A stretch of DNA of 64,000 nucleotides from Atrina japonica. Its lineage: Eukaryota; Mollusca; Bivalvia; Pterioida; Pinnidae. Below, in pieces: positions 2,314 to 51,925 of this stretch. The notes under the pieces were generated by a model. That model was not told the origin of the DNA and searched no databases. It was given only the letters and a program-made list of their open reading frames with translations. The stretch is taken from the NCBI GenBank assembly GCA_030159075.1, contig BROG01000350.1, positions 434,001-498,000 on the forward strand. Reading direction: 5' to 3'. The first letter of the stretch is position 1. Every line of letters starts with the position of its first letter. The position numbers were made by a program, and so were the translations under genes.

Positions 2314-5300
2314 CTGAAATTTAATCACATTTCATTGGGTAAATCTGTATAAATCAGTAATGATATCACAGGTAACCACAAGATAAAAATCATGGGTAGT
2401 GGAGAGGTTTTGTGCAAAAACACCATATAGTAGTTGTGCATGCATAGAGCAATATGGATATAGCAGATAAATATGCTGAAACCAATATGGATATTTGATG
2501 TATAGGCACCAAACAATATTGATAGTAGATGAAATGTTCACACATTCACATTTGGAAAATCTTTTTAAAAATTTGGCAAACGAAATTCTCTTTTGGCGAA
2601 AATAAATTTGGAGCTGAAATGTTCTGTATAATTATTGAAATTGATAATTCCCTGCAAATATGCATTTCTGATCTGCATGCGTGCAATTAATCCTCAAGTT
2701 GATTTCACACCTGTTTTAAATGTATGCAGTCTAGGACCCTGGTGCTGATGTGTATACAATAGGTAAACTGCTACTTGTCACACCTATTTAAACATACCTG
2801 CAAGTCATCCTGTCTTTTATGATACCCTAATCAACATCCATGATGATAAGTAATTCCTGATAATCTTTTAATTGGATTTAAAACTCAGAAAACTTTACCA
2901 CTTGTTGATATGACAGATAAAGAACCAATGATATTAGGCCGCTTGTGTTGAAATCAATTACTTGTCTCTTTATCAGAAAATAATGTTAACCACCCTAATT
3001 ACATTTACAAAATAAATAATAAAAATGATAAATTGTAACATAACCCATAAAGAAAGTGATAATGAGTATGACATTGTTTGACATGTACATGCAACTCACA
3101 ACCACTGATTGCTGCTGATATCACAGATAAACAAAAAAATTATCAACAAAATACATGTATTGGTTTTGAAAATATATAATGCAACAAGCAAAAAGAAAGA
3201 AAGAAAAAAAATAATATAAATTTCAATGCAATTAACATTTGATAGAATTTTGTGAACATTGTAGGCCAGGAAATGGGATTGGCAAGTTACTAACTCGAAG
3301 GTGTCTATGTATTTACGAGCCGACTTGGCTCAGTCGGTCGCATGCTCGACTCTTGATCATGAGGTTGTGAGTTCGAGCCAAGCCGGTGGCAGGTTGGTTT
3401 CCTGTCTTTCGGATCGAGACATTAAAAACCGAGGTCCTGTGTCACAGTAGGTGTCGGCACGTTAAAGAACCCTCACTGCTCAATGGCCATAAGTGCCGAG
3501 CATAGGCCAAATTTGAAGCCCTTCACCGGCATTTGGTGATGTCTCCATATGAGTGAAAGATTCTTGAGTGGGACGTTAAACAAGAATAAAACAAACAAAC
3601 AAACAAACTAGGTACTTACAGACTACAGTTACAGTAATTTCTATTCAAACTAGCACTTTACCTTTTTTATAAGAATTGAATAATTAGAATAATGAAAACC
3701 ATGACAAATTAAGTAATATGTATGCTTAGAGCAATATATGGATATAAAAGATGTGTATGCTTACAGCAATATGGATATAGAATATATTCATGCTAAGAGC
3801 AATATGGATATAGTAGATTGGAAACCGTATCATTTTGAGGTCCAAGTCACAGTTTCAAAAAGGTCCTCTTAAAAATTACATGAGAGATTGCTTCTTTTAC
3901 CTTGAATAAGCTTTCAGCTTTTACTTGTGTGTGATGTATGATTTGTATTTATGAAACTTTAAATATTTTACCTGAGATTGCTGGTTGATTTTAAACGTTT
4001 CATTGGATTGTTGACAGCCAATAATTCCAAGTGTAAGCTTCTCAATGAACCAATCGGTGACAAGGAGGCAAAGGATGACAATGAACTGTAAACACAAGGT
4101 CAAAATTCAATAAAAGATGCAAAAATGAGAAAATAATCCAAAAGACTGATTCTACAGTGGACCACTTTATTATCAACAATATGAACATATTTGTTCCTGG
4201 GTGAGTTTGGTGTTGTATATAGAAGATATTTGCCACAAAATTTGAAAAGTTTTCTGATTGGCAGAGTGAAAATGACACATTTTACATTGAATTTGCATGA
4301 AGTGTTATTTTTCACACTGTGAAAAATAACATTTAAAACAACAAATTTATCTATACAGTAATTGATAAATCCTTACGTTTCACTGTACTTGCAATAAAGA
4401 ATTTTCTCTTACAAATGCCACATCAACTGAGTGCAGCTAAAAATTAAGACGCATATAACATGGCAGCTGACAGATAGAATAAAGGGTACTGTAAACGTCA
4501 AAATTATTTCCTTGTTGGAGGTAATTTATGCTAAATACGGGATGAAGAGTTTTTCATGTAGTACCAACAATTACTATCTCACAGTAGTGCTAACATTTAC
4601 TATCTCACAGTAGTGCTAACAATTACTATCTCACAGTAGTTCTAACAATTACTATCTCACAGTAGTGCTAACAATTACTATCTCACAGTTGCTAACAATT
4701 ACTATCTCATAGTGCTAACAATTACTATCTCACAGTAGTGGTAACAATTACTATCTCACAGTAGTTCTAACAATTACTATCTCACAGCTAACAATTACTA
4801 AGTAGTGCTAACAATTACTATCTCACAGTAGTGCTACAATTACTATCTCACAGTAGTGCTAACAATTACTATCTCACAGTAGTGCTAAAATTACTATCTC
4901 ACAGTAGTGCTAACAATTACTATCTCACAGTAGTGCTAACAATTACTATCTCACAGTATTGCTAATATAATCTCACAGTAGTGCTAACAATTACTATCTC
5001 ACAGTAGTTCTAACAATTACTATCTCACAGTAGTGGTAACAATTACTATCTCACAGTAGTGGTAACAATTACTATCTCACAGTAATACTAACAATTACTA
5101 TCTCACAGTAGTGCTAACATTTACTATCTCACAGTAGTGCTAACAATTACTATCTCACAGTAGTGCTAACAATTACTATCTCACAGAAGTGGTAACAATT
5201 ACTATCTCACAGTAGTACTAACAATTACTATCTCACAGAAGTGGTAACAATTACTATCTCACAGAAGTGGTAACAATTACTATCTCACAGTAGTGCTAAC

Positions 5301-8300
5301 AATTACTATCTCACAGTAGTGCTAACAATTACTATCTCACAGTAGTGCTAACAATTACTATCTCACAGTAGTGCTAACAATTACTATCTCACAGTAGTGC
5401 TAACAATTACTATCTCACAGTAGTGCTAACAATTACTATCTCACAGTAGTGCTAACAATTACTATCTCACAGTAGTGCTAACAATTACTATCTCACAGTA
5501 GTGCTAACAATTACTATCTCACAGTAGTGCTAACAATTACTATCTCACAGTAGTGCTAACAATTACTATCTCACGGTAGTTCTAACAATTACTATCTCAC
5601 AGTAGTACTAACAATTACTATCTCACAGTAATACTAACAATTACTATCTCACAGTAGTACTAACAATTACTATCTCACAGTAGTGCTAACATTTACTATC
5701 TCACAGTAGTGCTAACAATTACTATCTCACAGTAGTGCTAACAATTACTATCTCACAGTAGTGCTAACAATTACTATCTCACAGTAGTTCTAACAATTAC
5801 TATCTCACAGTAGTGGTAGTCCTACAATTACTATCTCACAGTAGTGCTAACAATTACTATCTCACAGTAGTGCTAACAATTACTATCTCACAGTAGTGGT
5901 AACAATTACTATCTCACAGTAGTGGTAACAATTACTATCTCACAGTAGTGGTAACAATTACTATCTCACAGTAGTTCTAACAATTACTATCTCACTGTAG
6001 TGGTAACAATTACTATCTCACAGTAGTGCTAACAATTACTATCTCACAGTAGTGCTAACAATTACTATCTCACAGTAGTGGTAACAATTACTATCTCACA
6101 GTAGTGCTAACAATTACTATCTCACAGTAGTGGTAACAATTACTATCTCACAGTAGTGCTAACTACTATCTCACAGTAGTGGTAACAATTACTATCTCAC
6201 AGTAGTGCTAACAATTACTATCTCACAGTAGTGGTAACAATTACTATCTCACAGTAGTGCTAACAATTACTATCTCACAGTAGTTCTAACAATTACTATC
6301 TCACAGTAGTGCTAACAATTACTATCTCACAGTAGTTCTAACAATTACTATGTCACAGTAATACTAACAATTGTAGTGCTAACAACTATCTCACAGTAAA
6401 CAATTACTATCTCACAGAAGTGGTAACAATTACTATCTCACAGTAGTACTAACAATTACTATCTCACAGAAGCGGTAACAATTACTATCTCACAGAAGTG
6501 GTAACAATTACTATCTCACAGTAGTGCTAACAATTACTGTTTAATACAGGACTGTGCACAGTAATTTGTTGACACTACGTAAAAAAAAACCTTACGCATA
6601 TGGTTTGCATATGGATATTGTGTACTTAACAACACGTGGAAATATTCACGTTTATAGTATTTGAATTCTGCAATAAACATATAGTGATGGTAAAATTGAT
6701 CAATTCCATTAAAAGCACACATTCTTTGAAATAATATCCTCCATGGGATATGTTTGTCATTGTAGCCTGGGATTTTTAAACTAAAAATGCATGTTTATTT
6801 CTAATTTTTACTGCAAATAGTACATGTCATTATATTGACAGTAATATTACAATAGGTCAGGTGTCAGGAAATAAAATCAGGTGTCAGGTAGTAATATCAG
6901 GTGTCAGGAAATAAAATCAGGTGTCAGGTAGTAAGATCAGGTGTCAGGTAATAAGATCAGGTGTCGGGTAGTAAAATCTGGTGTCAGGTATAAGATCAGT
7001 TGTCAGGTTGTAAATCAGCTGTCACATATTAAGATCAGGTGTCAGGTAGTAAAATCAGATGTTAGGTAGTAAGATCAGGTGTCAGGTAGTAAAATCAGAT
7101 GTCAGGTAGTAAAATCAGATGTCAGGTAGTAAGATCAGGTGTCAGGTAGTAAAATCAGATGTCAGGTAGTAAGATCAGGTGTCAGGTAGTAAAATCAGGT
7201 GTCAGGTAGTAAGATCAGGTGTCAGGTAGTAAAATCAGGTGTCAGGTAGTAAGATCAGGTGTCAGGTAGTAAAATCAGATGTCAGGTAGTAAGATAAGGT
7301 GTCAGGTAGTAAAATCAGATGTCAGGTAGTAAGATCAGGTGTCAGGTAGTAAAATCAGGTGTCAGGTAGTAAAATCAGGTGTCAGGTAGTAAGATCAGGT
7401 GTCAGGTAGTAAAATCAGGTATCAGGTAGTAAAATCAGATGTCAGGTAGTAAGATCAGGTGTCAAGTAGTAAAATCAGGTATCAGGTAGTAAGATCAGGT
7501 GTCAAGTAGTAAAATCAGGTATCAGGTAGTAAGATCAGTTGTCAGGTAGTAAAATCAGGTATCAGGTAGTAAGATCAGGTGTCAAGTAGTAAAATCAGGT
7601 GTCAGGTAGTAAAATCAGGTGTCAGGTAGTAAGATCAGGTGTCAGGTAGTAAGATCAGGTATCAGGTAGTAAGATCAGGTGTCAGGTAGTAGAATCAGAT
7701 GTCAGGTAGTAAAATCAGATGTCAGGTAGTAAGATCAGGTGTCAGGTAATAAAATCAGGTATCAGGTAGTAAGATCAGATGTCAGGTAATAAAATCAGGT
7801 ATCAGGAAGTAAGATCAGGTGTCAAGTAGTAAAATCAGGTATCAGGTAGTAAGATCAGGTGTCAGGTAGTAAAATCAGATGTCAGGTAGTAAGATCAGGT
7901 GTCAGGTAGTAAAATCAGGTATCAGGTAGTAAGATCAGGTGTCAAGTAGTAAAATCAGGTATCAGGTAGTAAGATCAGGTGTCAGGTAGTAAAATCAGAT
8001 GTCAGGTAGTAAAATCAGATGTCAGGTAGTAAGATCAGGTGTCAGGTAGTAAAATCAGGTGTCAGGCAGTATAATCAGATGTCAGACAGTAAGATCAGGT
8101 GTCAAGTAATTAAATCAGATGTCAGACGTTAAGAGGTAGTAAAGTCAGGTGTCAAGTAATAAGATCAGGTTTCAGGTAGTAAATTCTGGTGTCAGGTAAT
8201 AAGATCAGTTGTCAGTTTGTAAAATCAGCTGTCACATATTAAGATCAGGTGTCAGGTAAAAAAATCAGGTGTCAAGCAGTAAATCAGGTGTCAGGTAGTA

Positions 8301-11300
8301 CAATCAGGTGTCAAGTAATAAGATCAGTTGTCAGGTAGTAAACGCAGGTGTCAGTATTAAGACCAGTTGTCAGGTAGTAAGATCAGGTGTCAGATAGTAA
8401 AATCAGGTGCCAGGTAGTAAAATCAGGTGTCAGGTAGTAAGATCAGGTATCAAGTAGTAAGATCAGGTGTCAGGTAGTAAAATCAGGTATCAGGTAGTAA
8501 GATCAGGTGTCAAGTAGTAAAATCAGGTATCAGGTAGTAAGATCAGGTGTCAAGTAGTAAAATCAGGTATCAGGTAGTAAGATCAGGTGTCAGGTAGTAA
8601 AATCAGATGTCAGGTAGTAAGATCAGGTGTCAGGTAGTAAAATCAGGTATCAGGTAGTAATATCAGGTGACAAGTAGTAAAATCAGGTATCAGGTAGTAA
8701 GATCAGGTGTCAGGTAGTAAAATCAGGTGTCAGTATAATCAGATGTCAGACAGTAAGATCAGGTGTCAAGTAATTAAATCAGATGTCAGACGTTAAGATC
8801 AGGTGTCAGGTAGTAAAGTCAGGTGTCAAGTAATAAGATCAGGTTTCAGGTAGTAAATTCTGGTGTCAGGTAATAAGATCAGTTGTCAGTTTGTAAAAAT
8901 CAGCTGTCACATATGAAGATCAGTGTCATAAAAAAATCAGGTGTCAAGCAGTAAATCAGGTGTCAGGTAGTACAATCAGGTGTCAAGTAATAAGATCAGT
9001 TGTCAGGTAGTAAACGCAGGTGTCATATATTAAGACCAGTTGTCAGGTAGTAAGATCAGGTGTCAGATAGTAAAATCAGGTGCCAGGTAGTAAAATCAGG
9101 TGTCAGGTAGTAAGATCAGGTGTCAGGTAATAAGATCAGGTATCAAGTAGTAAGATCAGGTGTCAGGTAGTAAAATCAGGTATCAGGTAGTAAGATCAGG
9201 TATAGTAAATCAATCAGGTAGTAAGATCACAGGTGTCAAGTAGTAAAATAGGTATCAGGTAGTAAGATCAGGTGTCAGGTAGTTAAAATAATGTCAGGTA
9301 GTAAGATCAGGTGTCAGGTAGTAAAATCAGGTATCAGGTAGTAATATCAGGTGACAAGTAGTAAAATCAGGTATCAGGTAGTAAGATCAGGTGTCAGGTA
9401 GTAAAATCAGGTGTCAGGCAATATAATCAGATGTCAGACAGTAAGATCAGGTGTCAAGTAATTAAATCAGATGTCAGACGTTAAGATCAGGTGTCAGGTA
9501 GTAAAGTCAGGTGTCAAGTAATAAGATCAGGTTTTAGGTAGTAAATTCTGGTGTCAGGTAATAAGATTAGTTGTCAGTTTGTAAAATCAGCTGTCACATA
9601 TTAAGATCAGGTGTCAGGTAAAAAAATCAGGTGTCAAGTAGTAAAATCAGGTATCAGGTAGTAAGATCAGGTGTCAGGTAGTAAAATCAGGTATCAGGTA
9701 GTAAGATCAGGTGTCAAGTAGTAAAATCAGGTATCAGGTAGTAAGATCAGGTGTCAGGTAGTAAAATCAGGTATCAGGTAGTAAGATCAGGTGTCAGGTA
9801 GTAAAATCAGGTGTCAGGTAGTAAAATCAGGTATCAGGTAGTAAAATCAGGTGTCAGGTAGTAAAATCAGGTGTCAGGTAGTAAAATCAGGTGTCAGGTA
9901 GTAAGATCAGGTGTAAGGTAGTAAATCAGGTGTCAGGTAGTAAGATCAGGTGTCAGGTAGTAAGATCAGGTGTCAGGTAGTAAAATCAGGTGTCAGGTAG
10001 TAAGATCAGGTGTAAGGTAGTAAATCAGGTATCAGGTAGTAAGATCAGGTGTCAGGTAGTAAAATCAGGTGTCAGGCAGTATAATCAGATGTCAGGTAGT
10101 AAAATCAGATGTCAGACAGTAAGATCAGGTGTCAAGTAATTAAATCAGATGTCAGACGTTAAGATCAGGTGTCAGGTAGTAAAGTCAGGTGTCAAGTAAT
10201 AAGATCAGGTTTCAGGTAGTAAATTCTGGTGTCAGGTAATAAGATCAGTTGTCAGTTTGTAAAATCAGCTGTCACATATTAAGATCAGGTGTCAGGTAAA
10301 AAAATCAGGTGTCAAGCAGTAAATCAGGTGTCAGGTAGTACAATCAGGTGTCAAGTAATAAGATCAGTTGTCAGGCAGTAAACGCAGGTGTCATATATTA
10401 AGACCAGTTGTCAGGTAGTAAATCAGGTGTCAGGTAGTAAAATCAGGTGTCAGGTAGTAAAATGATGTGTTAGGAAGTAAAATTAGGTGTCAGGTAGTGA
10501 AATCAGATGTCAGGTAGTAAGATCAGGTGTCAGATTGTAAAATCAAGTGTCAGGTAATAAAATTAGTTGTCAGGTAATAAAAACAGGTGTCATATATTAA
10601 GATCAGGTGTCAAGTAGTAAATTCTGGCATCAGATAGTAAGACCAGGTGTCAAGTAGTTAAATCAGGTGTCATATATTAAGATCTGGTGTCAAGTAGTAA
10701 GATCAGTTGTCAGATAGTAAAATCAGATGTCAGGTAGTAAAATCAGGTGTTAGGAAGTAAAATCAAGTGTCAGGTAATAAAATTAGTTGTCAGGTAATAA
10801 AAACAGGTGTCATATATTAAGATCAGGTGTCAAGTAGTAAATTCTGGCATCAGATAGTAAGACCAGGTGTCAGGTAGTAAAATCAGGTGTCATATATTAA
10901 GATCTGGTGTCAAGTAGTAAGATCAGTTGTCAGATAGTAAAATCAGGTGTCAGGTAGTAAAATCAGGTGTCAGGTTGTAAGATAAGGTGTCAGGCATTTA
11001 AATCAGGTGTCAGATATTCAGATCAGGTGTCAGGTAGCAAGATTAAGTGTTAGGTTGTAAGATAAGGTGTGAGGCAGTTAAATCAGGTGCCAGGTAGTAA
11101 AATCAGGTATGAGGTGGTAAGATTAGATTATGTTATGATAGATTACAAATACTAAATAGAGTCTTGAAATTCTTTGAATTAGTATCTCTAAAGTACTGTC
11201 TTATACTCACCCTGTCCTTGCATGCTTTCTCGGTACAATTAGACTTTGAGGAGTATCCATCTATAAAATCAAATATCCAATAATATATTAGATTACAGTT

Positions 11301-18434: not shown

Positions 18435-18740
18435 CAGTGGGAACCTCCGCCGGCAGCAGGTTGGTTTCCTGTCTTTGGGATGAGACAGTAAAAACTGGAG
18501 GTCCAGTGTCACAGTAGGTGTCGGCACATTAAAGAACCCTCACTGCTCAATGCCCGTAAGTGCCGAGCATAGGCCAAAATTTGTAGCCCTTCATCGTCAT
18601 TTGGTGATGTCTCCATATGAGTGAAGTATTCCTGAGTGGGATGTTAAACAACAATAAACAAACAGTGGGAACCTCACTATTAAGACAACCTTACTGACAG
18701 TGCTCTGATTACTGGGGTGGTATCTTAAGTGAGGTTCTTT
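18435..18740. mobile_element. MITE interrupted by a SINE
   Basis: Same family as 11665-11822. The end cagtgggaacctc appears at 18435-18447 and again at 18663-18675, followed by actattaagac. The inverse end is ggtatcttaagtgaggttc near 18719-18737. The duplicated 13 bp is the target duplication of the SINE inserted inside the MITE terminus. Confidence 0.65.
18448..18662 (+). mobile_element. SINE (family 1), 5'-truncated, with 13-bp target duplication
   Basis: Body and tail match the copy at 3317-3605 from about the gccggcagcaggttggtttc segment to ggatgttaaacaacaataaa, but the tRNA head is missing. Flanked by a perfect 13-bp direct repeat (cagtgggaacctc). Confidence 0.85.
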
Positions 18741-26376: not shown

Positions 26377-29300
26377 TTGCTTTTTTGAGGGGTTTCAATA
26401 TAGATCTCTTTAATTTCAGGTATTCATACACAAAGCTTTTGGATACAGAGGGGTAATTTTGTTCCCATGGTTAGCTCGAGTGTACGACCACAAAGATGCA
26501 TCTTCAGATAAATCGAGTAACATACAGAAGTATGTGTTGACATCTTATCCTAGAAATACATACTGTAGAATCAGAACATTTCGTTGTGGTTTTAATTCCA
26601 TTAATTTCATTGTTTTTATATATCAACAAAGTTTAAACAATGATGAAATATTACATAATTATAATTTATACCTAGTAATAGTAATTAGTAGTTTCCATTA
26701 CAAACAGGCTTTTTATTTATTTCAACAAAATTTAATGTCAATGAATATGTTTTATTTGTTAAACAACAAACTTTTGACCCCATTAATATAATATTTTCTT
26801 ATTGTACAGTACGTTCATTCCTTTTTTCAAATGTATACCTTGGTACATGTCATTTTGTATTGTACATACACATTTATATAAGGTGAATGTCAATAAATAT
26901 TTGAATTTGATTTTACAAGAGACTAAATTTGAAAGGTGTCTAGATCAGTAAAGTGTTTGAGAACAGGGCTCAAGGACATAACACTTTCTCATGCTAAACT
27001 CTCTACCAATCAAATACATAGCTACATTGTAGCATTCATTCTGATCATTCGAGATTGAGATTAGCTTTTAAGTTTAGTGTGTAAAAAAAATTCCTAACAT
27101 GCCATTGCCTGGCACCATAAATCTTAAGAATGGCTTAAGTCTAAAACTTTTATTAAAATCTGATAAATCCTCAAATATTCTCAGACTTAAGCAAATTCTT
27201 AAGTTCTATGGTGCTAGTCCCAGATCTTTTAGATGAGATAAAATTGCCAAGCATGATACAACCATTTTTTACAAAATATTAAAGGTATATTTTTATTTCC
27301 AGAGATAATGAAGAAAAAAAAGACAAAATAAATGTAAAACGGCGCTTATTTTATCAAGTTTTAATGGATTCCAGGGATCACAAATATGTAGAACCAGTAA
27401 GTTATCCCTGTAAAATGTATTTGTCATGTCGCCAGAGTGTTATAGTTGCAGATTCCCTTTGTATGCAGGAAATATTTATTTTCACAGACTTGTATCATTT
27501 CAGATACTGTGTATAATTGATATCTTAGAGATATCTCTCCTTATTATATATTTGACATTTTTTTTATTATTCCTTTTTCAGATTGGTTATTTTTTGTACT
27601 CTAAATATCCTAATGCATACGCTCCATGTTTTTTAATTGTTGCAACTTTATTTCAGAGAATACAGACAGATGCAGTCACATACCTGGGTAACAGCAGTAA
27701 AGATTTGACTGTTATTTCAGGTAATGCCTAGTTATTTCGTTTAATCAATTGATCATATATCTGGGTACCAGCAATAAAGATTTGACTGTTGTTACAGGTT
27801 ATATTAGTCTTATAACTGGTCCTATAATTCCCAGTTATTTTGTCGTTTAATTCATTGACCATATACCTTGGTAACAAGGGTAGAAGTTTGACTGTTATTT
27901 CTGGTAATACCCAGTTATTTTATCGTTCATGATTGCCAACATACCTTGATATAAACAACAATAGAGCTTTGATTGAGGTAATACCCAGTTATTTTTTTAA
28001 TCAATTCATTATATACCTGTTTAACAGCAGTAGAGATGTGACTGTTATTTCAGGTAAATCACAGTTATATTGTTATTAAATTAGTTGACCACATAACTGT
28101 GTAACAGCAGCAGAGGTGTGACTGTTATTTCAGCTTATTTTTATTACTCAATTGATCATATACCTGGGTAAAAGCAGTAGAGGTGTGACTGTTACGTCAG
28201 GTAAATCCCAGTTATAATGTTATTAAATTATTTTGTTTAATCAATTGATCATAAACCTGGGTGTGGATTATTATGACCTGTGCAGTAGTTAGATCTGGAG
28301 ATTATCATGACCTTTGCAGTAGTTAGATCTGGAGATTTTCAGGACCTGTGCAGTAGTTAGATCTGGAGATTATCATGACCTGTGCAGTAGTTAGATATGG
28401 AAATTATCATGACCTGTGCAGTAGTTAGATCTGGAGATTATCAGGACCTGTGCAGTAGTTAGATCTGGAGATTATCATGATCTGTGCAGTAGTTAGATAT
28501 GGAAATTATCAGGACCTGTGCAGTAGTTAGATATGGAGATTATCAGGACCTGTGTAGTAGTTAGATCTGGAGATTGTAAGGACCTGTGCAGTAGTTAGAT
28601 CTGGAGATTATCAGGACTTGTGCAGTACAAAATGTAGTTAGATTAGGAGATTATCAGGACCTGTGCAGTAGTTAGATATGGAAATTATCATGACCTGTGC
28701 AGTAGTTAGATCTGGAGATTATCAGGACCTGTGCAGTAGTTAGATCTGGAGATTATCAGGACCTGTGCAGTAGTTAGATCTGGAGATTATCAGGACCTCT
28801 GCAGTTGTTAGATCTGGAGATTATCATGACCTTTGCAGAAGTTAGATATGGAAATTATCATGACATGTGCAGTAGTTAGATCTGGAGATTATCATGACCT
28901 GTGCAGTAGTTAGATATGGAAATTATCAGGACCTGTGCAGTAGTTAGATCTGGAGATTATCAGGACCTGTGCAGTAGTTAGATCTGGAGATTATCATGAT
29001 CTGTGCAGTAGTTAGATATGGAAATTATCATGACCTGTGCAGTAGTTAGATCTGGAGATTATCAGGACCTGTGCAGTACAAAATGTAGTTAGATCAGGAG
29101 ATTATCAGGACCTCTGCAGTTGTTAGATCTGGAGATTATCATGACCTGTGCAGTAGTTAGATATGGAAATTATCATGACCTGTGCAGTAGTTAGATCTGG
29201 AGATTATCAGGACCTGTGTAGTAGTTAGATCTGGAGATTATCAGGACCTCTGCAGTTGTTAGATCTGGAGATTATCAGGACCTGTGCAGTTGTTAGATCT

Positions 29301-32300
29301 GGAGATTATCATGACCTGTGTAGTAGTTAGATCTGGAGATTATCAGGACCTGTGCAGTAGTTAGATCTGGAGATTATCAGGATCTGATATGTGCAGTTGT
29401 TAGATAGGAGATTATCATCTTTGCACTTGTTAGATTATAATTTGAAAGGTGCTTTTTAACATATTGTCCAGAAGTATGTTCAGAATCTTTTTTTTGTGTA
29501 AACTCTGTTATCATGATCTGTGCAGTAGTTAGATCTGGAGATTATCAGGACCTGTGCAGTACAAAATGTAGTTAGATCAGGAGATTATCAGGACCTCTGC
29601 AGTTGTTAGATCTGGAGATTATCATGACCTGTGCAGTAGTTAGATATGGAAATTATCATGACCTGTGCAGTAGTTAGATCTGGAGATTATCAGGACCTGT
29701 GTAGTAGTTAGATCTGGAGATTATCAGGACCTCTGCAGTTGTTAGATCTGGAGATTATCAGGACCTGTGCAGTTGTTAGATCTGGAGATTATCATGACCT
29801 GTGTAGTAGTTAGATCTGGAGATTATCAGGACCTGTGCAGTAGTTAGATCTGGAGATTATCAGGACCTGTGTAGTAGTTAGATCTGGAGATTATCAGGAC
29901 CTCTGCAGTTGTTAGATCTGGAGATTATCAGGACCTGTGCAGTTGTTAGATCTGGAGATTATCATGACCTGTGTAGTAGTTAGATCTGGAGATTATCAGG
30001 ACCTGTGCAGTAGTTTAGATCTGGAGATTATCAGGATCTGATATGTGCAGTTGTTAGATAGGAGATTATCATCTTTGCACTTGTTAGATTATAATTTGAA
30101 AGGTGCTTTTTAACATATTGTCCAGAAGTATGTTCAGAATCTTTTTTTTGTGTAAACTCTGTTATCATGATCTGTGCAGTAGTTAGATCTGGAGATTATC
30201 AGGACCTGTGCAGTACAAAATGTAGTTAGATCAGGAGATTATCAGGACCTCTGCAGTTGTTAGATCTGGAGATTATCATGACCTGTGCAGTAGTTAGATA
30301 TGGAAATTATCATGACCTGTGCAGTAGTTAGATCTGGAGATTATCAGGACCTGTGTAGTAGTTAGATCTGGAGATTATCAGGACCTCTGCAGTTGTTAGA
30401 TCTGGAGATTATCAGGACCTGTGCAGTTGTTAGATCTGGAGATTATCATGACCTGTGTAGTAGTTAGATCTGGAGATTATCAGGACCTGTGCAGTAGTTA
30501 GATCTGGAGATTATCAGGATCTGATATGTGCAGTTGTTAGATAGGAGATTATCATCTTTGCACTTGTTAGATTATAATTTGAAAGGTGCTTTTTAACATA
30601 TTGTCCAGAAGTATGTTCAGAATCTTTTTTTTGTGTAAACTTGAACTTTTGGTAATTACTTGATAATTTTTTTTTTCAACATAAATCAACTTAAAACAAT
30701 AGAAATAACTTGATATTTGTGAATAAGAGTTTTTGTTCATGGGCTTATATAGGATTGAAAAAACAAAACAAAGCATCGAAGATAGTGGTAGTTTTATTTT
30801 CACCACGTACATGCTAATTGGGGAAACATGTGTTATGATATTGTGAACCATGGTGTTTTTTTTAGCTGATATGAATTTCTTATAAAAATGATCAGTAGAA
30901 TTCTGTAACATCCTGTGATAGAGCTACAATAAATATTATTAACAATACCAAAGTGATGGTTTTACAAACGAGTCCAGAACAATTGCTCATGTTGATTGTT
31001 TCTGTCAATAAGATTTCATCAGTTGCATTCAATTAATATAGATATCGGTATATTAGATTATATGATTTCCAAAAGAAAAAGTGGTATCATGCAAGGCCAA
31101 ATTATAAATCTGAATATGTTGCCAAATCTGTCTAAGAGAATCCCACTGTAAAATTAACATCTAATTGTTGAATATTTTCACGTACAGTTTTGGTACTGTA
31201 ATATTTCATAGATAACACTATTAAGACAGCAAAGGCTTTACATGTAAATTAGATTCTTTTTTTTTATTTATGTGAGAATTCTCACAAAAGTATAATGATC
31301 TTCAAAATTGGCCGATATTTTAGTCCCAGCGAGACTCAATGGCATTTCAGATCTATAACATTATTGTACTTGTCCTCTGTTAGTGATCGAGTATATTTAT
31401 ATAGTACAGTGGAACCTGTCTTGGGAGACCACCTCATCTTCCACTGAAATGTGGTCTCTCAGAAGAGGTTTTATCTTAAGGAATTTTAAACCATGTGGTT
31501 TTCAAAATTTGGTCTCAGAGGACAGGTGCTCTTGAGAGGTTTTTCAAGACAGGATCTACTGCAGTCAATACAGACTGTGACTTATTAGTGACTTGACTTG
31601 TTTTGTAATTACTTGTATAGCATCCTGTCTGATAAGTCTCATTTCTATTTTCTATACCAGGAATGGATTATGTATCACATGAAGATGTTGTGCCTTACAC
31701 AAGTTCAGAAAAATCCCCAATCGATCATAGATTGTACGAAAAATTATTGGCAATGGATGATCCAGACAACGGTGAGATACACAGTTTATAATGCTTCTGA
31801 ACTTGTGGACATATTGGGGGCATTGTGCCTTTAGACTCCATAATGAATACCATGTTTTCTGTTCAATCTATTCAACTGTTTCTTCCTATAAATATTCACA
31901 TGATTTATTTTATTGGGGGCATTGTGCCTTTAGACTCCATAATGAATACCATGTTTTCTGTTCAATCTATTCAACTGTTTCTTCCTATAAATATTCACAT
32001 GATTTATTTTATTTGGTACAAGGATTTTACAAGAACAAACTCTTACTGCCAGGTTTAAGACATGTGACTGAATAATTGTATGGTGATTAATTTTATGTTT
32101 GAATATTTGCAGTTTACTTTTTAACCCTGAATATTCAATCAACTGTCTCAGCTTTAGTAAAGTGGGTTTTAGTCCTCTATATAAACTCATGTAGAAAAAT
32201 GGCCAGTCATAGGTTTTAATTATTTATTTTGCCTTGTGTCAGTTAAGACTCAACATTTTATCAGATATATGGTGACGGCCAGTTTTTAATTGTAGAGGAG

Positions 32301-41668: not shown

Positions 41669-43411
41669 TTATTACATGCCCCGTATTTATCTATATCTAT
41701 ACACAGATTTAAAATTCATTCCACTTTAACGACGCCATCAAATATTTTGGATGACATGAATGCCATTTAGAAAAATAGCTCCGGCGAAATTTCTGTATCC
41801 AACTATGTGCAATGTGACATTGCGTATTGCAATCAGCCCTTGGTATTTATCATTTACGTCAGATCAATTTATTTCACGTCACTTGAATTACATCTATCTG
41901 TATACAGTTATAATTTTACAAAAAAAAATTACGTAAAAGATTGCTTTGTGAAATGAATTGTTTACTAAATATGAGAATCATGTTACTTGATCATGTTTGT
42001 ACTTTGAGCCTTTATGACAAGAATTACTATGTTGTATTACATCGTATCAGTACCAGTACTTTTGTGTATCAGAGCCGACACTGTATGACTATGTGTCATT
42101 ATGATATCAATTATACATTGTACGTGTCACGACTTGCCTAAGTAAGATATTACATATCATACCTTGGGTACTCATATTGTGTCGTGATGGTAAAATACAA
42201 CTTAAGTAAGGTCATAGGTCCAATATCATTGTTTCTTCTTCATTTTAACACAATTCTCTACAGTTGCCGTATTTTCGTTATGAATTGGTCGCCTGATTGT
42301 TGAACATTTCGAGTTACAGACTGTCTGTGCTGTAGGATCTATTATTATACCTACTGTTTTATCACTAAAATACAGATGAATTGAATGCCATGAAATAAAT
42401 AGGTTAATCTAATTTATAATTTGTAAGTAAAACATTAAAATATAAGATTACTTGCTCCTCAGTATTATCTTGTTTTTTATGCATTGAGATCAAAGATGTC
42501 AGATGTCACAATTCATACGTTGTGCCAAGGCATGTCGCTCTTAGGAATGATGCACTGTTTTGATCTCTTTGTTTGTGTGGTAAACTTTGTCACATGTTGG
42601 TTTCCGTCAATAACTGGAGTTTATTTTCTCAAATTTAAACCACATTTGGTAAAGCAGTTGATATCAATGCCAGTCGTGTGGGGTTTGTAATTACAAATTG
42701 TCTTCACCAATGTCTAGGCTCTCAGTATTATATTTCTCACGTGAAAAGGCTCAAGAATGACGGAACCTTCGAAAGTCCAGATAATTTATATTAAAGGTTT
42801 CTGATATGTAAACTAAAACATTCTAACAACAGAAAATGTCACAGTATATCTGTTGTTCATGTCATAAGACTATTTGTATTCCTTGTTTTTCAGTATTCAA
42901 CAATTTTAGATCAGAAATAAGATTTATTTTTTTACATCCTTAAAAAACCGTTTTCTTACTGAAATGGTATATGTAAATTCATATACCATGTCATTGGTAA
43001 TCTAAGTTAAGTAATTTGTCCAACACAACTTTGATTCTAAACCAATTGCACAGACAAGTATATTAAAGAAGATTCTTGAGGTGTTACATGTTACTATATA
43101 TGGCATAGTCCAATCGATATAACGGGGCAAAGTAACCGTTTGGTTACCATAGTAATGGCCTTATTCACTTTTCAGTTATGACAGGCCTCACAGAGAAAAA
43201 ACGTTTTAGTCCTCACTGGATACTCGTCTGATGACAAGTATAATCTTGCTGCCAGTGTTAATGTTCTGCTTTGATACCTAACTCGTCCAGGGGTTCACAA
43301 GATTCCGCCCCGGCAGTTTAAATGTATTTATGACCAAGCGGAGTATCAAATTTGCTATGTACACCAGGTTTACCTCTTTACTATGTATGTCAGTCCGGCT
43401 GCTGTTTTCTA

Positions 43412-43454
43412 TGTGGAGGAGCCTTTAAAACGTTCGAATCGGAATTGAGTTGTG
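43412..43454 (+). repeat. 43-bp direct repeat, left copy
   Basis: Begins tgtggaggagcctttaaaac and ends gaattgagttgtg. Identical to 46281-46323 over all 43 bases. Together they bracket the virus-derived genes. Confidence 0.95.
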
Positions 43455-43652
43455 AGTAGTATATGGTAGGCACTTCAGCCCACCTTTTTCCGAGAAACGA
43501 AACGTACCTAGATTTCCAGGAATTGCAGTTATATATAGCCGATGATATATATATATATAACATAGTCACGCTCCGGTGATCACCAGGTAAATGCCGTATG
43601 AGTCGTTTCAATTTGTTTCGCCTTACTGGTGCCCAACGGTATAATATAAAAA

Positions 43653-44414
43653 TTGACCAATTTTGATCAATTCGACCAAAAGAAGTTAACCCTCGAAGAA
43701 ACTAAATCAGTGTTTTATAATATATTTTATGATGGCCAGTCTCTTAGATTACTGACTCCCCTCTTAATAGCGGGGGGTAGAGGTAGTTGGTTTTATGGTG
43801 TTACGATGAGAATTATGCAAAGAAGCATGGAAAATTTGTGCAAGTTATTAAACAGATTGAAGAATTTCTTGACAATGAACATAGTAAAATCTATAGTAAG
43901 GAGGTGGAATTTGATGTGAAAAAAATTAAAATTTTACGGAGTACCATCACTAAAAATTATTATATTTTCCCCACACGTAAAGAAAAAAGATCTCTTTTTT
44001 TAAAATCATTAAAAAGTCCTGATTCGATGGGAAGGAAAAGTTGCGTTGTTGATCCATTTGATGACAACATACCGTTTTGTAATGCTTGGGGTATTTTAGC
44101 ATTCGCACCTATTTATATATTTAATAAGACGGCTGAAGAGATTGAGCTTTTTGCGGATTTTGTTTTTATTGAGGAAGAGTTTGAAGGATCTATATTATGA
44201 AGAACGTTGGGCTAAAAGTAAAGAAGAGGCGAGAGAAATTGTCAGACGGAAGTTACACAAAATGTTGGGCTACGACTACGAACTTAGTTTTGATGCTAAG
44301 GCGCATGATTAATGGGAAAATGAATATGAGATGTGGGATAATTTATATAAGTCTGGTAACTATGAAATTATATTAAAATTACTAGAAATGATATCATTAT
44401 TAGAAAAACAGTAA
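43653..44414 (+). pseudogene. Unrecognised virus-cassette gene, broken
   Basis: Coding-like sequence passes through three frames: 43653 to about 43785, then about 43787-44200, then about 44200-44414 with an in-frame TAA at 44310-44312. The first frame opens without ATG (TTG at 43653). Residue content is Lys/Glu-rich with aromatic residues (for example YYIFPTRKEKRS) and no motif I can assign. It faces the ATPase end to end, about 40 bp apart. Likely another viral structural or accessory protein, but this is inference from position only. Confidence 0.55.
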
Positions 44415-44454
44415 AAGAAACCAATGTATTAATTTATATTTACAAAAATATAAA

Positions 44455-45086
44455 TTATTGTATAAACTTGTATCCAGTAGGTTGTTCTGTTCGTAAGATT
44501 AGTTTAGAGTGTTTGCGCTGCGATAATTCATGTTTGAGATATCTTTTCTCCTCGTCTGGAACAACATCATTCTCATCTAAGCATTCATTGTAACTAAACT
44601 TGTCCTTAGTGAAGAATAGTGCAACCCATTTGATTTGTGTACGAAAATCTTTGGACGCACTACTATATATCTCTGCGTTAATATCCACACAGATTGATTG
44701 GCATGTCTTCCCGAAAATGCTAACATGGACAGAGCATCAGCTTTCTTTTTTATTTGTCTCGTAGCTGAACAGTCATCTATGATGTACAACGTAGATGTTC
44801 CTTTATATTTGTCATAAAAGAGTCTTAACAAGTCCTGCAATCTTTCTTCTCCTGTTTTTGACACTGGGTTAACGATGACAACGCGTTTGTCTTTTGGGTG
44901 TTTGACATCATCCCCAATCCATTTTCTCGATCTGTAAGCTTTGTTGAAATCGATCGAAGGACACAGGATCACAATGTGTTCGAAGAAATCTTTGTATTCG
45001 TCTTCTAATAGATCTAGAACAAACTCAGTCTTCCCGCAACCTATGGCGCCCACAATCATAGCGGAATGAGGTTGTCGAATGTACAT
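44455..45086 (-). pseudogene. A32-like packaging ATPase, frameshifted
   Basis: ATG at 45086. The first frame runs to 44577 and contains a Walker A motif (GAIGCGKTE, residues 13-21), a Walker B-type strand (TLYIIDDCSA, about 97-106) and a downstream sensor-like segment SVWILTQRY (about 132-140). The continuing C-terminal part is in another frame (about 44695-44455), so one frameshift lies near 44690-44700. The family (FtsK/HerA superfamily, poxvirus A32 relatives) pumps DNA into capsids of Polinton-type and nucleocytoplasmic large DNA viruses. Size (about 210 residues if intact) fits the short viral versions. Confidence 0.75.
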
Positions 45087-45107
45087 TTTTTATATGACTT
45101 TAATTTT

Positions 45108-46251
45108 TTAAGATATAACGCTCGCGAAACGACCGTTTGACATGTTAATCTGCCCATCTTTTACTACAAAAATGTAAACATCCAAGGGATCAGTATCAGT
45201 TTCTGGAGTTCTCTCGATTCTGACGGAAACACCTTCACTAATGTTTTGAAGCTTACGACCTGATCCGTGGAGATGATTTTCTGGTGTAGTTCGTAAATCT
45301 AACCAGAGAGCGTAATGGTTTTTGAGGTATTTTCCCTAAAGTTATTTCGCTTAACATGAGTTCTTTGGCTATTAATTCTGTAGCGTTTTTCGCGATTTAG
45401 GGAAGCTGAGAAAAACTTTTTAATTTCTTCAAATTGGTGATATGGTCTCATTCCAGCTGAGAAGAGTTGGTTTGGTTGTCCCTCGATGGTTGTTTCCACT
45501 TTGGTGATTCTAGGATTATAAAATTTTTCAGGATTGTTTTTAGAAATATCTTTGAAGAGAAACAGAATGCCTGAGAGAGATCGCGCTGGGGTGTTAATTT
45601 GATAATTGAGGATGCCATCTGATTTACTCATCGTCGTTTTGCGATATCGTAATATTTGGTTGAAGTAATAAGCGTGGTCTCCATTATATCTTTGTCTGAT
45701 GCTGCGAGCGAGAGTGGCATCAGTAATTTTTTCGAATTCCAAAGCGATGTTGGTTCGCCTTATAACTTATCGCTTTATCAGCATCACTGGGGTCTGTCGA
45801 GACGACGTGTTTGGCATCGTTTAAATGTTAGCATGTATTCCAATCTATCTTGTAATCCTGCTTGATAAAATGGTTCGCTTGTCTCCAAGATTTCGAAATC
45901 CAAGGGAATGCAAAAACGATTCCTGAACGCCGCAACAATTTCGTAGTCTTCGTTTGTGTCGAGAGGTATTTTATAGCTGGAGGGTTTTGCTCTTACCATA
46001 TTTAGATCTTTATTCTGTATTCCCTGATAGACCATATTACGTCGTTCTACTTTCCAAAGATCGTTATAGACGAAGAATTTATCAGCATCGTCGAGGGTTT
46101 GAACGGTGTGTCCTGAGAGCTTCACCTCGATTTTTTTAATGATGTTACGTCCCAGATTATTATAAACACCTATTTTAGTGAGATCACCACCTTCAACAGC
46201 GACTTCCATATCAAAGCATAAATTTTGCTCTTCTGGGAACGATGACATCAT
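45108..46251 (-). pseudogene. Probable double jelly-roll major capsid protein, two frameshifts
   Basis: Three consecutive frames read as one protein: 46251-45784 (ATG ATG start), about 45742-45299, and about 45298-45108 (stop TAA). Total length would be near 380 residues. Recognisable blocks are DLTKIGVYNNLGRNIIKKIE in the first part, KFYNPRITKVETTIEGQPNQ with FSAGMRPYHQFEEIKKFF in the second, and a Gly/Asn-rich C-terminus in the third. This resembles the capsid-type protein found beside A32-like ATPases in virus-derived loci of mollusc and cnidarian genomes. A structure-based comparison would be needed to confirm the double jelly roll. Confidence 0.6.
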
Positions 46252-46280
46252 TATCGCGTAAAATTGGGGAAAACGAACCG

Positions 46281-46323
46281 TGTGGAGGAGCCTTTAAAAC
46301 GTTCGAATCGGAATTGAGTTGTG
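46281..46323 (+). repeat. 43-bp direct repeat, right copy
   Basis: Identical to 43412-43454. It lies 30-72 bp upstream of the capsid-like start codon on the minus strand, so it may overlap a viral promoter or leader as well as marking the border. Confidence 0.95.
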
Positions 46324-46339
46324 TGTTTAATTCCATATT

Positions 46340-46622
46340 GTTTGTTTGTTTATTGTTGTATAACGTCCCACTCAAGAATCTTTGACTCATATGGAGACGT
46401 CACCAAATGCCGGAGAAGGGCTTCAAATTTTGGCCTATGCTCGGCACTTATGGTCATTGAGCTGTGAGGGTTCTTTAACGTGCCGACACATACTGTGACA
46501 CTGGACCTCGGTTTTTACTGTCTCATCCGCAGGACAGGAAACCAACCTGTCGTCGGCTGGACTCGAACTAACGACCTCACGATCAAGAGTCGAGCGCGCT
46601 ACCGACTGACCCAGGCCGGCTC
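46340..46622 (-). mobile_element. tRNA-derived SINE (family 1), full length, 11-bp target duplication
   Basis: The minus strand reads the tRNA-like head (gagccggcctgggtcagtcgg) through to the gggacgttatacaacaataa tail. Flanked by aattccatatt at 46329-46339 and 46623-46633. Inserted 6 bp outside the right viral direct repeat. Confidence 0.88.
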
Positions 46623-47139
46623 AATTCCATATTAATATATGTTGATGTTTTACAACGTACTCTAGCGTAACTAGAAAATAAAGGGGCATTAGCTGTGGGT
46701 TTTTTTCCAAAATTTTGTTTCCCCTGTTTAACTACTTAGATTGATATACAATAACAAAAAATGATACACACAGGCATAAAATTCTTCAATTCTTATACAT
46801 ATTTTGTGAAAATTGCTTCAGAAACTCGGGTTTGGCACTTCTTCACTTGCAAATTGAATAACTTACCCTTACTATTTGTATATGAATACCACACTGGGTC
46901 TGACCTTATTTTCACAAAATATATAGGAATATAAGATGCCTGTGCCTGTGTATAGCTCTTATTTTCTATTGTACATCAAGTGAAAGTAGTAAAATTAGAA
47001 AATAATCGAAATAATATTTTGGGGTAAACACAGCTAGTGGCCCTTTAAAGAACAAATTCTGCTTGCCGTGCTTTACGGGAGAGTGTTCGATTGGTTAGTA
47101 GGATGATCCAGTTTCCATTCATACCTAACACTTACAAAT

Positions 47140-50145: not shown

Positions 50146-51925
50146 GTAAAAATGACTTAACATATTAAGAATTTTAAAACGAATCTGCGATGCAAAATGG
50201 ACACTTTTGTACATTTCTGATTTATAATCGTAAATAATTACGAAAGGCATTTCTCATTTTAAGAAAATGTCAGAGTTATAATGGAATAGTTTTTGTACAA
50301 ACTAAAACTATTTTAATACCATATGGGAGTTTTATTTTTTTTGGTGAAAATCATGAACTTGATCTGTTTGTTTTTTTATCTTATGTGAATAAAAAAGCTA
50401 AAAATCTGTTTCGTCGTATCCAAAGGTCTTAAAAAACGTTGCCGTCAAAACAAAATAGTACCGAGTTAATTTGGTGACACCAGACAGTGCTATAAAATTG
50501 TTTGTGTGTATCTGAACACGTAAACAGAGTAGCTTATTGCTTATCTTGTACTTCATGTACCTCTTAGTGATACGCAGTTATGATATAACCCTATAATGAC
50601 TTTATTTGCAACTACCATGTTTTCCTAAATCGGAATAGCTCAGTCGGTAGCGCGATCGACTCTTGATCGTGAGGTCCAGTCGATAGAAGGTCGGATTCCT
50701 GTCCTTGGCTGAAACAGTAAAAAACGAGTACCGTGTCACAGTAGGTGTCGGCACGTAAAAGAACCCTCACTGCTCAATGGCCGTAAGTGCCGACCATAGA
50801 CTAAACTTTGAAGCCTTTTACCGGAATTGGTGACGTTTCCATATGAGTTAAAGATTCTTGAGTTGGGTGTTAAACAACAGTACAACCAACTAACCATATT
50901 TTTCCTAACTGGAGGGTCTCTTCCTTCTGGTCAGCGAAGGTTCGAACCCCGCTGAAACCTCCGTTGATTTTTGTGATAAAGTTTGCCAGTTTACTTACCG
51001 AAGGCCGGTGGTCTTTTTCCGGGTACATTGTAACCGGGTTTTTTCCTCCACCTAATTAAAAATTGCTGAGTGTGGCGTTAAACATTATTCAAAATTCAAA
51101 AATTCGTAACTGGAAGGTTGAGTATTCAGAAGTGGTAAAATAAAGCGTATATACCGACTGTAATTATAATTCATTTTTATGTGAATTTGACTGGGAAATC
51201 ACGACGGCTTTGACTTGGGCAGCTAATGCCAACTCCTCCAGGGCACCTGGTTTAACCGCTATATTTTCCAGCGGTTTGTTTTATCCAATATTCACTATGT
51301 TGATATGTTCTTTATGGACTTCCTAATTTTCTGTTCGTTATATACTTACAAATATTCTGCACAAATTAAAATTAAGAGCCGTTTAATTTATTTTATAGGT
51401 TTACATGGTCATGCCGGGCATCATTTAGAACTATCACCCAATACCTTTTCTATCTCTAAACACAACGCATATTCGTTCCTGCGGACGAAAAGGAGTTCTC
51501 GATGTAACACAGACGAACCATATTGTGAAGCAAACAAACCTACATGTATGGTAAGATGTCAACCTAGAACAGTTAACGTGCTATTTAACAGACTGTCCTG
51601 TGTCAAGTCCAAATGTAATTTTTGCTGAACGTTTCGTTTTGATTGTTTACACAGAATCAAGCACATATGTTTCCCTTGTGGACATCGAACGTGTAGGTTT
51701 CGGCTTTCCTATCATCAGCTTTCAATAGTAATTTCCACTTTACGCCTGAATATGGTGTTTATATAGCGCAGATGATCCGATTGAGCAGGACATGTTAACA
51801 TTTCATACACAGGGGTTGTTGTTGTCACAAGGAATTGCGTTTTATGTCAACATTCGCAAATTATACGGTTGGTGTAATTACCTTGCTTGCAATTACAATA
51901 CTTTGGTATCTATGATATATCTTTA

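Follow-up and report, generated by a model that had tools for sequence, protein, structure and literature searches.

Two perfect 43-bp direct repeats in the bivalve Atrina japonica, within a genomic stretch of 64,000 nucleotides that we call the window, enclose a cassette of 2,826 bp (43455-46280) with three genes and nothing more. This cassette is probably the end piece of a Polinton-type element of about 15 kb, left by a one-ended integration that would have been finished by host repair. The element end at 43455 meets the host as in an ordinary integration, a joining that would have been made by integrase, and inside the capsid gene, at 46280, the element breaks off. The second end, with the polymerase and integrase genes, would never have entered this copy or would have been lost at once, and the broken end would have been attached by host repair to target DNA lying 43 bp upstream of the site of insertion. 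A stretch of 43 bp of host DNA was duplicated, compared with the usual 5-6 bp, and the repair step would account for its copying. The cassette would then be a dead by-product of a failed integration, and the 43-mer would have no attachment function. The features are collected in Table 1.

Table 1. Features of the cassette and its borders (positions within the window).
Feature	Position	Strand	Remarks
Single-copy host sequence on the left side	43330..43411		Only the window itself matches, among 42 matches listed
Host target duplication (43 bp), left copy	43412..43454		Exact repeat; two copies genome-wide
Natural element terminus, terminal inverted repeat region beginning AGTAGTATATG	43455..43660	+	Shared start at 8 further loci whose flanks are unrelated
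Broken gene of unknown function	43660..44330	+	Relatives 211-267 aa; at least 100 matches in own genome
A32-like packaging ATPase gene	44458..45086	-	Pox_A32 5.5e-9; one frame break; relatives 209 aa
Major capsid gene, without about the first 42 codons	45111..46280	-	Several frame breaks; intact relatives 430 aa
Truncation point, element-host junction	46280..46281		20/20 relatives stop here; possible one-base overlap (T)
Host target duplication (43 bp), right copy	46281..46323		Exact repeat; two copies genome-wide

Results

The repeat and the right border

The first-pass annotation had described perfect repeats around three genes with frameshifts, and this description is accurate: the copies at 43412-43454 and 46281-46323 are identical at 43/43 positions, and three reading areas lie between them. 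No match of this kind arose by chance in 100 dinucleotide shuffles. With up to three mismatches allowed, the 43-mer occurs at only two places in the 832-Mb genome of the species, both at the cassette, which excludes the possibility, set as a check in the first-pass annotation, that it is an unrelated dispersed repeat. With up to eight mismatches it was absent from every examined locus other than the window's own. Another possibility raised there, that the 43-mer is an internal part of larger relatives, did not hold either, as the larger relatives lack it.

The right border was examined with a query reaching 55 bp beyond it. In all 20 relatives examined (18 distinct copies), homology ends at 46281 (19 relatives) or 46280 (one), and the DNA of each of these relatives extends at least 979 bp past that stop. 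The border cuts the capsid gene, so that about 42 codons are missing from the start of a gene that encodes 430 aa in intact relatives, and by tblastn the capsid homology of the window begins near residue 43. The relatives read on across the start of the capsid gene, while the window switches there to the 43-mer, diverging right after the border. Since the homology of the relatives ends at the edge of the repeat and the relatives do not carry the 43-mer, these alignments indicate that the repeat is duplicated host target DNA, lying outside the element.

These results bear on three origins that had been put forward for the repeat. The idea that it is the element's attachment site, or its terminal redundancy, would explain a perfect repeat on both sides of the cassette but is very improbable: the family has 380 termini in the genome but the 43-mer occurs there only twice, it is absent from every examined locus other than the window's own, and at the right border it breaks into the capsid gene. 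We rejected both variants, the attachment-site pair and the terminal redundancy of a virus, because the 43-mer is absent from all other examined loci at up to eight mismatches and because the capsid gene continues without interruption past the position of the right border in 20 of 20 relatives. Integration by a tyrosine recombinase was likewise rejected, since a repeat common to element and targets is not what two copies genome-wide, and none at the other examined loci, amount to. The third idea, a recombination scar that removed replication genes, came closest: the end with the integrase and polymerase genes is indeed missing, but the repeat itself is duplicated host DNA.

There is next to no chance that the cassette, within these borders, forms an independent small mobile unit, a capsid-ATPase satellite. 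Such a unit would fit the presence of three genes and nothing else inside, but none of the 18 distinct relatives that extend to the right border shares it, and the start of the capsid gene is missing. This reading was rejected on the truncation of the capsid gene at the border and the lack of any relative sharing the breakpoint.

The left border and its surroundings

The start of the terminus at 43455 (AGTAGTATATG...) is matched base for base by the start at eight other loci, and the 200-bp upstream flanks of these loci and of the window showed no mutual similarity in 36 comparisons. As judged from this shared start, the left border is the natural terminus of the family. In a search with the left flank (42400-43454, 1,055 bp), the 125 bp adjoining the insertion matched only themselves among the 42 matches listed (40 of 903 candidates scored). 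Further out, the listed matches from elsewhere are confined to an old dispersed repeat at about 43105-43329, which shows about 67-86% identity to many genome copies.

On the other side, 6 bp to the right of the repeat, lies a tRNA-derived SINE-like element (46329-46633) with A- and B-box-like motifs, an AAACA-type tail on the minus strand and an 11-bp target duplication, AATTCCATATT; the window has three more copies of it, near 3317-3602, 18449-18664 and 50640-50899. Long tandem arrays with units of 26, 20 and 34 bp occupy 4558-6538, 6857-11120 and 28266-30523.

Gene content and decay

The first-pass annotation was right in assigning Polinton-type genes to the cassette: they are an A32-like ATPase gene and, adjoining it, a capsid gene of the double-jelly-roll kind. 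The ATPase piece of the window scores 36.3 bits and that of a relative 43.2 bits, against a Pox_A32 cut-off of 22.8; ATPase homologues are about 57-80% identical, and by tblastn the ATPase of the window falls in two frames. Two of the ATPase homologues, P0036 and P0040, are filed under assemblies of bacterial symbionts (Candidatus Thiodiazotropha) and are probably clam host DNA inside them. Named homologues come from the bivalves Mytilus coruscus and Mactra antiquata.

A query from the middle of the capsid gene detected relatives in the same genome (150 scored of 1,199 candidates), many of which keep a frame of about 430-440 aa open. A Pfam Capsid_N match remained below the cut-off. The structural model of a capsid homologue, P0122, which is of modest confidence (mean pLDDT 60.8, pTM 0.66), matches the corresponding proteins of iridovirus, PBCV-1 and mavirus (TM about 0.5, E about 1e-13 to 1e-12), and by this predicted fold the capsid protein of the family is a double-jelly-roll major capsid protein. 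A search of solved structures by sequence gave no convincing relative, and in a collection of viral contigs neither the ATPase piece nor the capsid piece had a relative, nor did a relative's intact capsid or an alignment of 39 capsid rows. Candidate structural open reading frames adjoining the capsid gene had no Pfam match.

The plus-strand gene is weakly similar (BLASTP 3e-05) to a DUF2738-type protein encoded next to its counterpart in one relative, L033. Some relatives carry this extra gene outward of the gene of the window type (L033:1095-1760; DUF2738 match 5.7e-8), and the similarity would perhaps reflect an old duplication.

Compared with 12 relatives, the window has ten private frame-changing indels (three in the plus-strand gene, one in the ATPase gene and six in the capsid gene), of which eight are insertions and two deletions. 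All seven of those in the ATPase and capsid genes are insertions, and 11 relatives have 0-3 private indels each. Private substitutions number 6 at 1,295 unanimous sites in the ATPase and capsid genes and 13 at 395 in the plus-strand gene. Because private substitutions are so few, the copy looks young in these alignments, and assembly error, the simplest idea, may underlie some of the frame breaks and is a possible explanation of the private insertions. The gene decay reported at first calls for two corrections: besides its frameshifts, the capsid gene is cut by the right border, and the decay has the odd property that the private frame-changing indels of the ATPase and capsid genes are all insertions. 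A 43-mer would stay intact with a probability of 42% at 2% divergence between copies and of 11% at 5%. With about 0.5% private substitutions in the ATPase and capsid genes, the perfect repeat beside decayed genes, which had been considered odd, needs no special explanation.

The parent family

The terminus pattern occurs at 380 places in the genome, compared with none for a reversed control pattern. Pairing was analyzed for 100 of these 380 termini, all with zero mismatches, and 78 of the 100 form 39 inverted pairs, 8,422-19,773 bp apart (median 14,944 bp). Termini of the family are also found in inverted pairs on the same contigs, one pair being on the window's own contig and outside the window (C350:390474-404091, 13.6 kb apart); the window copy keeps one end only. 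Seven of the nine pairs whose flanks were read have target duplications of 5-6 bp, with 6 bp at C382, C318 and C227 and 5 bp at C125, C431, C31 and C123; the other two are uninterpretable in this respect, as the C14 pair lies in a GA repeat and the left place of C1054 is non-terminal. The normal signature of the family is therefore the one that the first-pass annotation had expected, terminal inverted repeats with a short target duplication.

The first-pass annotation had advised a search for longer relatives with integrase and polymerase, and beyond the part present in the window, relatives do have a type B DNA polymerase and an integrase-like protein. Relative L069 has DNA_pol_B_2 matches in three frames (4.4e-21, 1.2e-17 and 1.4e-07), and the window copy has none. 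An rve match in relative L071 (3.5e-6) scored 27.7 bits, below the curated cut-off of 32.6, and two broken integrase-like pieces of L069 had no Pfam match. Because polymerase B, an integrase-like protein and a capsid protein go together with inverted terminal repeats and 5-6-bp duplications, we assign the family, from its genes and ends, to the Polinton/Maverick type, with a length of about 15 kb. In the ATPase/capsid region of another relative, an exact 300-bp direct repeat was noted, with its copies 576 bp apart (L035:3109-3984).

Other one-ended copies

Among the 100 termini analyzed for pairing, 22 were unpaired, the window included, and three of these (C14:226401, C125 and C227) do have a partner end. 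We read 13 of the remaining 18 over 5.8-6.8 kb inward, and C11 and C150 further. Three of the 13 repeat the arrangement of the window. At C3, about 510 bp of element lead into a 57-bp host duplication, 98% identical, with about three overlapping bases at the junction; the duplicated stretch occurs at two places genome-wide. At C11, element homology extends for about 5.8 kb and ends at the first base of a host duplicate of about 811 bp (about 97%), and the flank sits within a dispersed repeat. At C150, about 446 bp of host flank are repeated in three pieces (93-100%) that end exactly at the insertion point, and 192 bp between element and duplicate are unassigned. At the other ten termini no long duplication was present over the length read, and one of them, C77, has a flank that is single-copy genome-wide; the pattern is therefore not general. 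Since C3, C11 and C150 were picked for having a terminus, the natural terminus is independent evidence in the window only.

Discussion

The structure is real and well bounded, and its origin lies in a known kind of element; what is unusual is the recurrence of a long host duplication at one-ended copies. As a family, these elements resemble Polintons/Mavericks in their terminal inverted repeats starting from 5'-AG, their 5-6-bp duplications and their length of about 15 kb, as well as in their gene set of polymerase B, a candidate rve-like integrase, A32-like ATPase and double-jelly-roll capsid protein. The account of target duplications in PMC8547959 gives 5-6 bp both for mavirus and for Maverick/Polinton elements. 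The window copy differs from this type in having a single terminus, no integrase/polymerase half, no capsid start and a host duplication of 43 bp. There is also a likeness to adintoviruses, described in the part of PMC11071296 that defines them as integrating, adenovirus-like relatives of Polintons, recognized partly by an N-terminal OTU-like domain on PolB, a C-terminal chromodomain on the integrase and a hexon that BLASTP can recognize. Under that definition the features in common are the association with animals, PolB, a candidate retrovirus-like integrase and a putative hexon-type capsid protein; in the one PolB piece of L069 that was searched, Pfam gave no match to an OTU-like domain at E values up to 10.

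A close parallel to the arrangement in the window comes from the integration of HIV-1 when its integrase is impaired. In the aberrant proviruses described in PMC5041404, integrase inserted only one end, which is normal; truncation of the aberrant end is frequent, and the duplicated host stretch usually far exceeds 5 bp. The same three features, a normal end, a truncated other end and an enlarged host duplication, are seen in the window and at C3, C11 and C150, and from this match we infer that the same mechanism probably operated here. The setting differs: the HIV-1 work of PMC5041404 concerns cultured cells in which a drug or a mutation of integrase is to blame, whereas the window has a natural germline copy of a DNA element and the cause can only be deduced. 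Among the papers listed in a literature search, none reports one-ended integration of a Polinton in its title or abstract, and we make no claim that the phenomenon is unreported.

Two other histories would produce the same structure. A full-length Polinton could have inserted normally and later suffered a break in the capsid gene, the broken end then being joined to an empty homologue or sister 43 bp upstream. Such a later break is just as good an explanation of one normal and one truncated end with a perfect host duplication, and the overlapping bases at the breakpoints (one in the window, about three at C3) fit end joining. We nevertheless consider it unlikely, as it requires two events and, for every copy concerned, an empty homologue joined no further than 43-811 bp from the insertion point, and no intermediate has been seen. 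Alternatively, a broken extrachromosomal viral genome with one natural end could have been taken up by end joining where the host DNA had a staggered break, with overhangs of 43 nt filled in and no part played by integrase. The sizes of the duplications (43, 57, about 446 and about 811 bp) vary as the filling in of ragged breaks would have them vary, but overhangs reaching hundreds of bases are difficult to account for, and the left join coincides exactly with the terminus's first base. Loss of end bases is common in end joining. Capture of this kind is, in our estimate, decidedly unlikely.

One-ended integration in the window, our preferred reading, may be an instance of something wider, and we put this forward tentatively, as a generalization that could well prove wrong. 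Polinton-type elements in this genome would repeatedly finish one end of their integration and leave the other to be completed by host repair, so that truncated virus genes come to lie between target duplications of 40-800 bp. These scars would constitute a record of failed integration in the germ line, and the process would be a major route to isolated capsid/ATPase fragments.

An isolated capsid-ATPase cassette between direct repeats need not, then, be a mobile unit. What had appeared to be a puzzling attachment site gives way to a signature that can be tested: an exact element end, a broken inner end and a long host duplication. If it were confirmed over the 380 termini and in other species, this signature would provide a count of failed Polinton integrations, and it would show a mode of failure shared between an impaired HIV integrase and DNA elements whose integrases are retrovirus-like.
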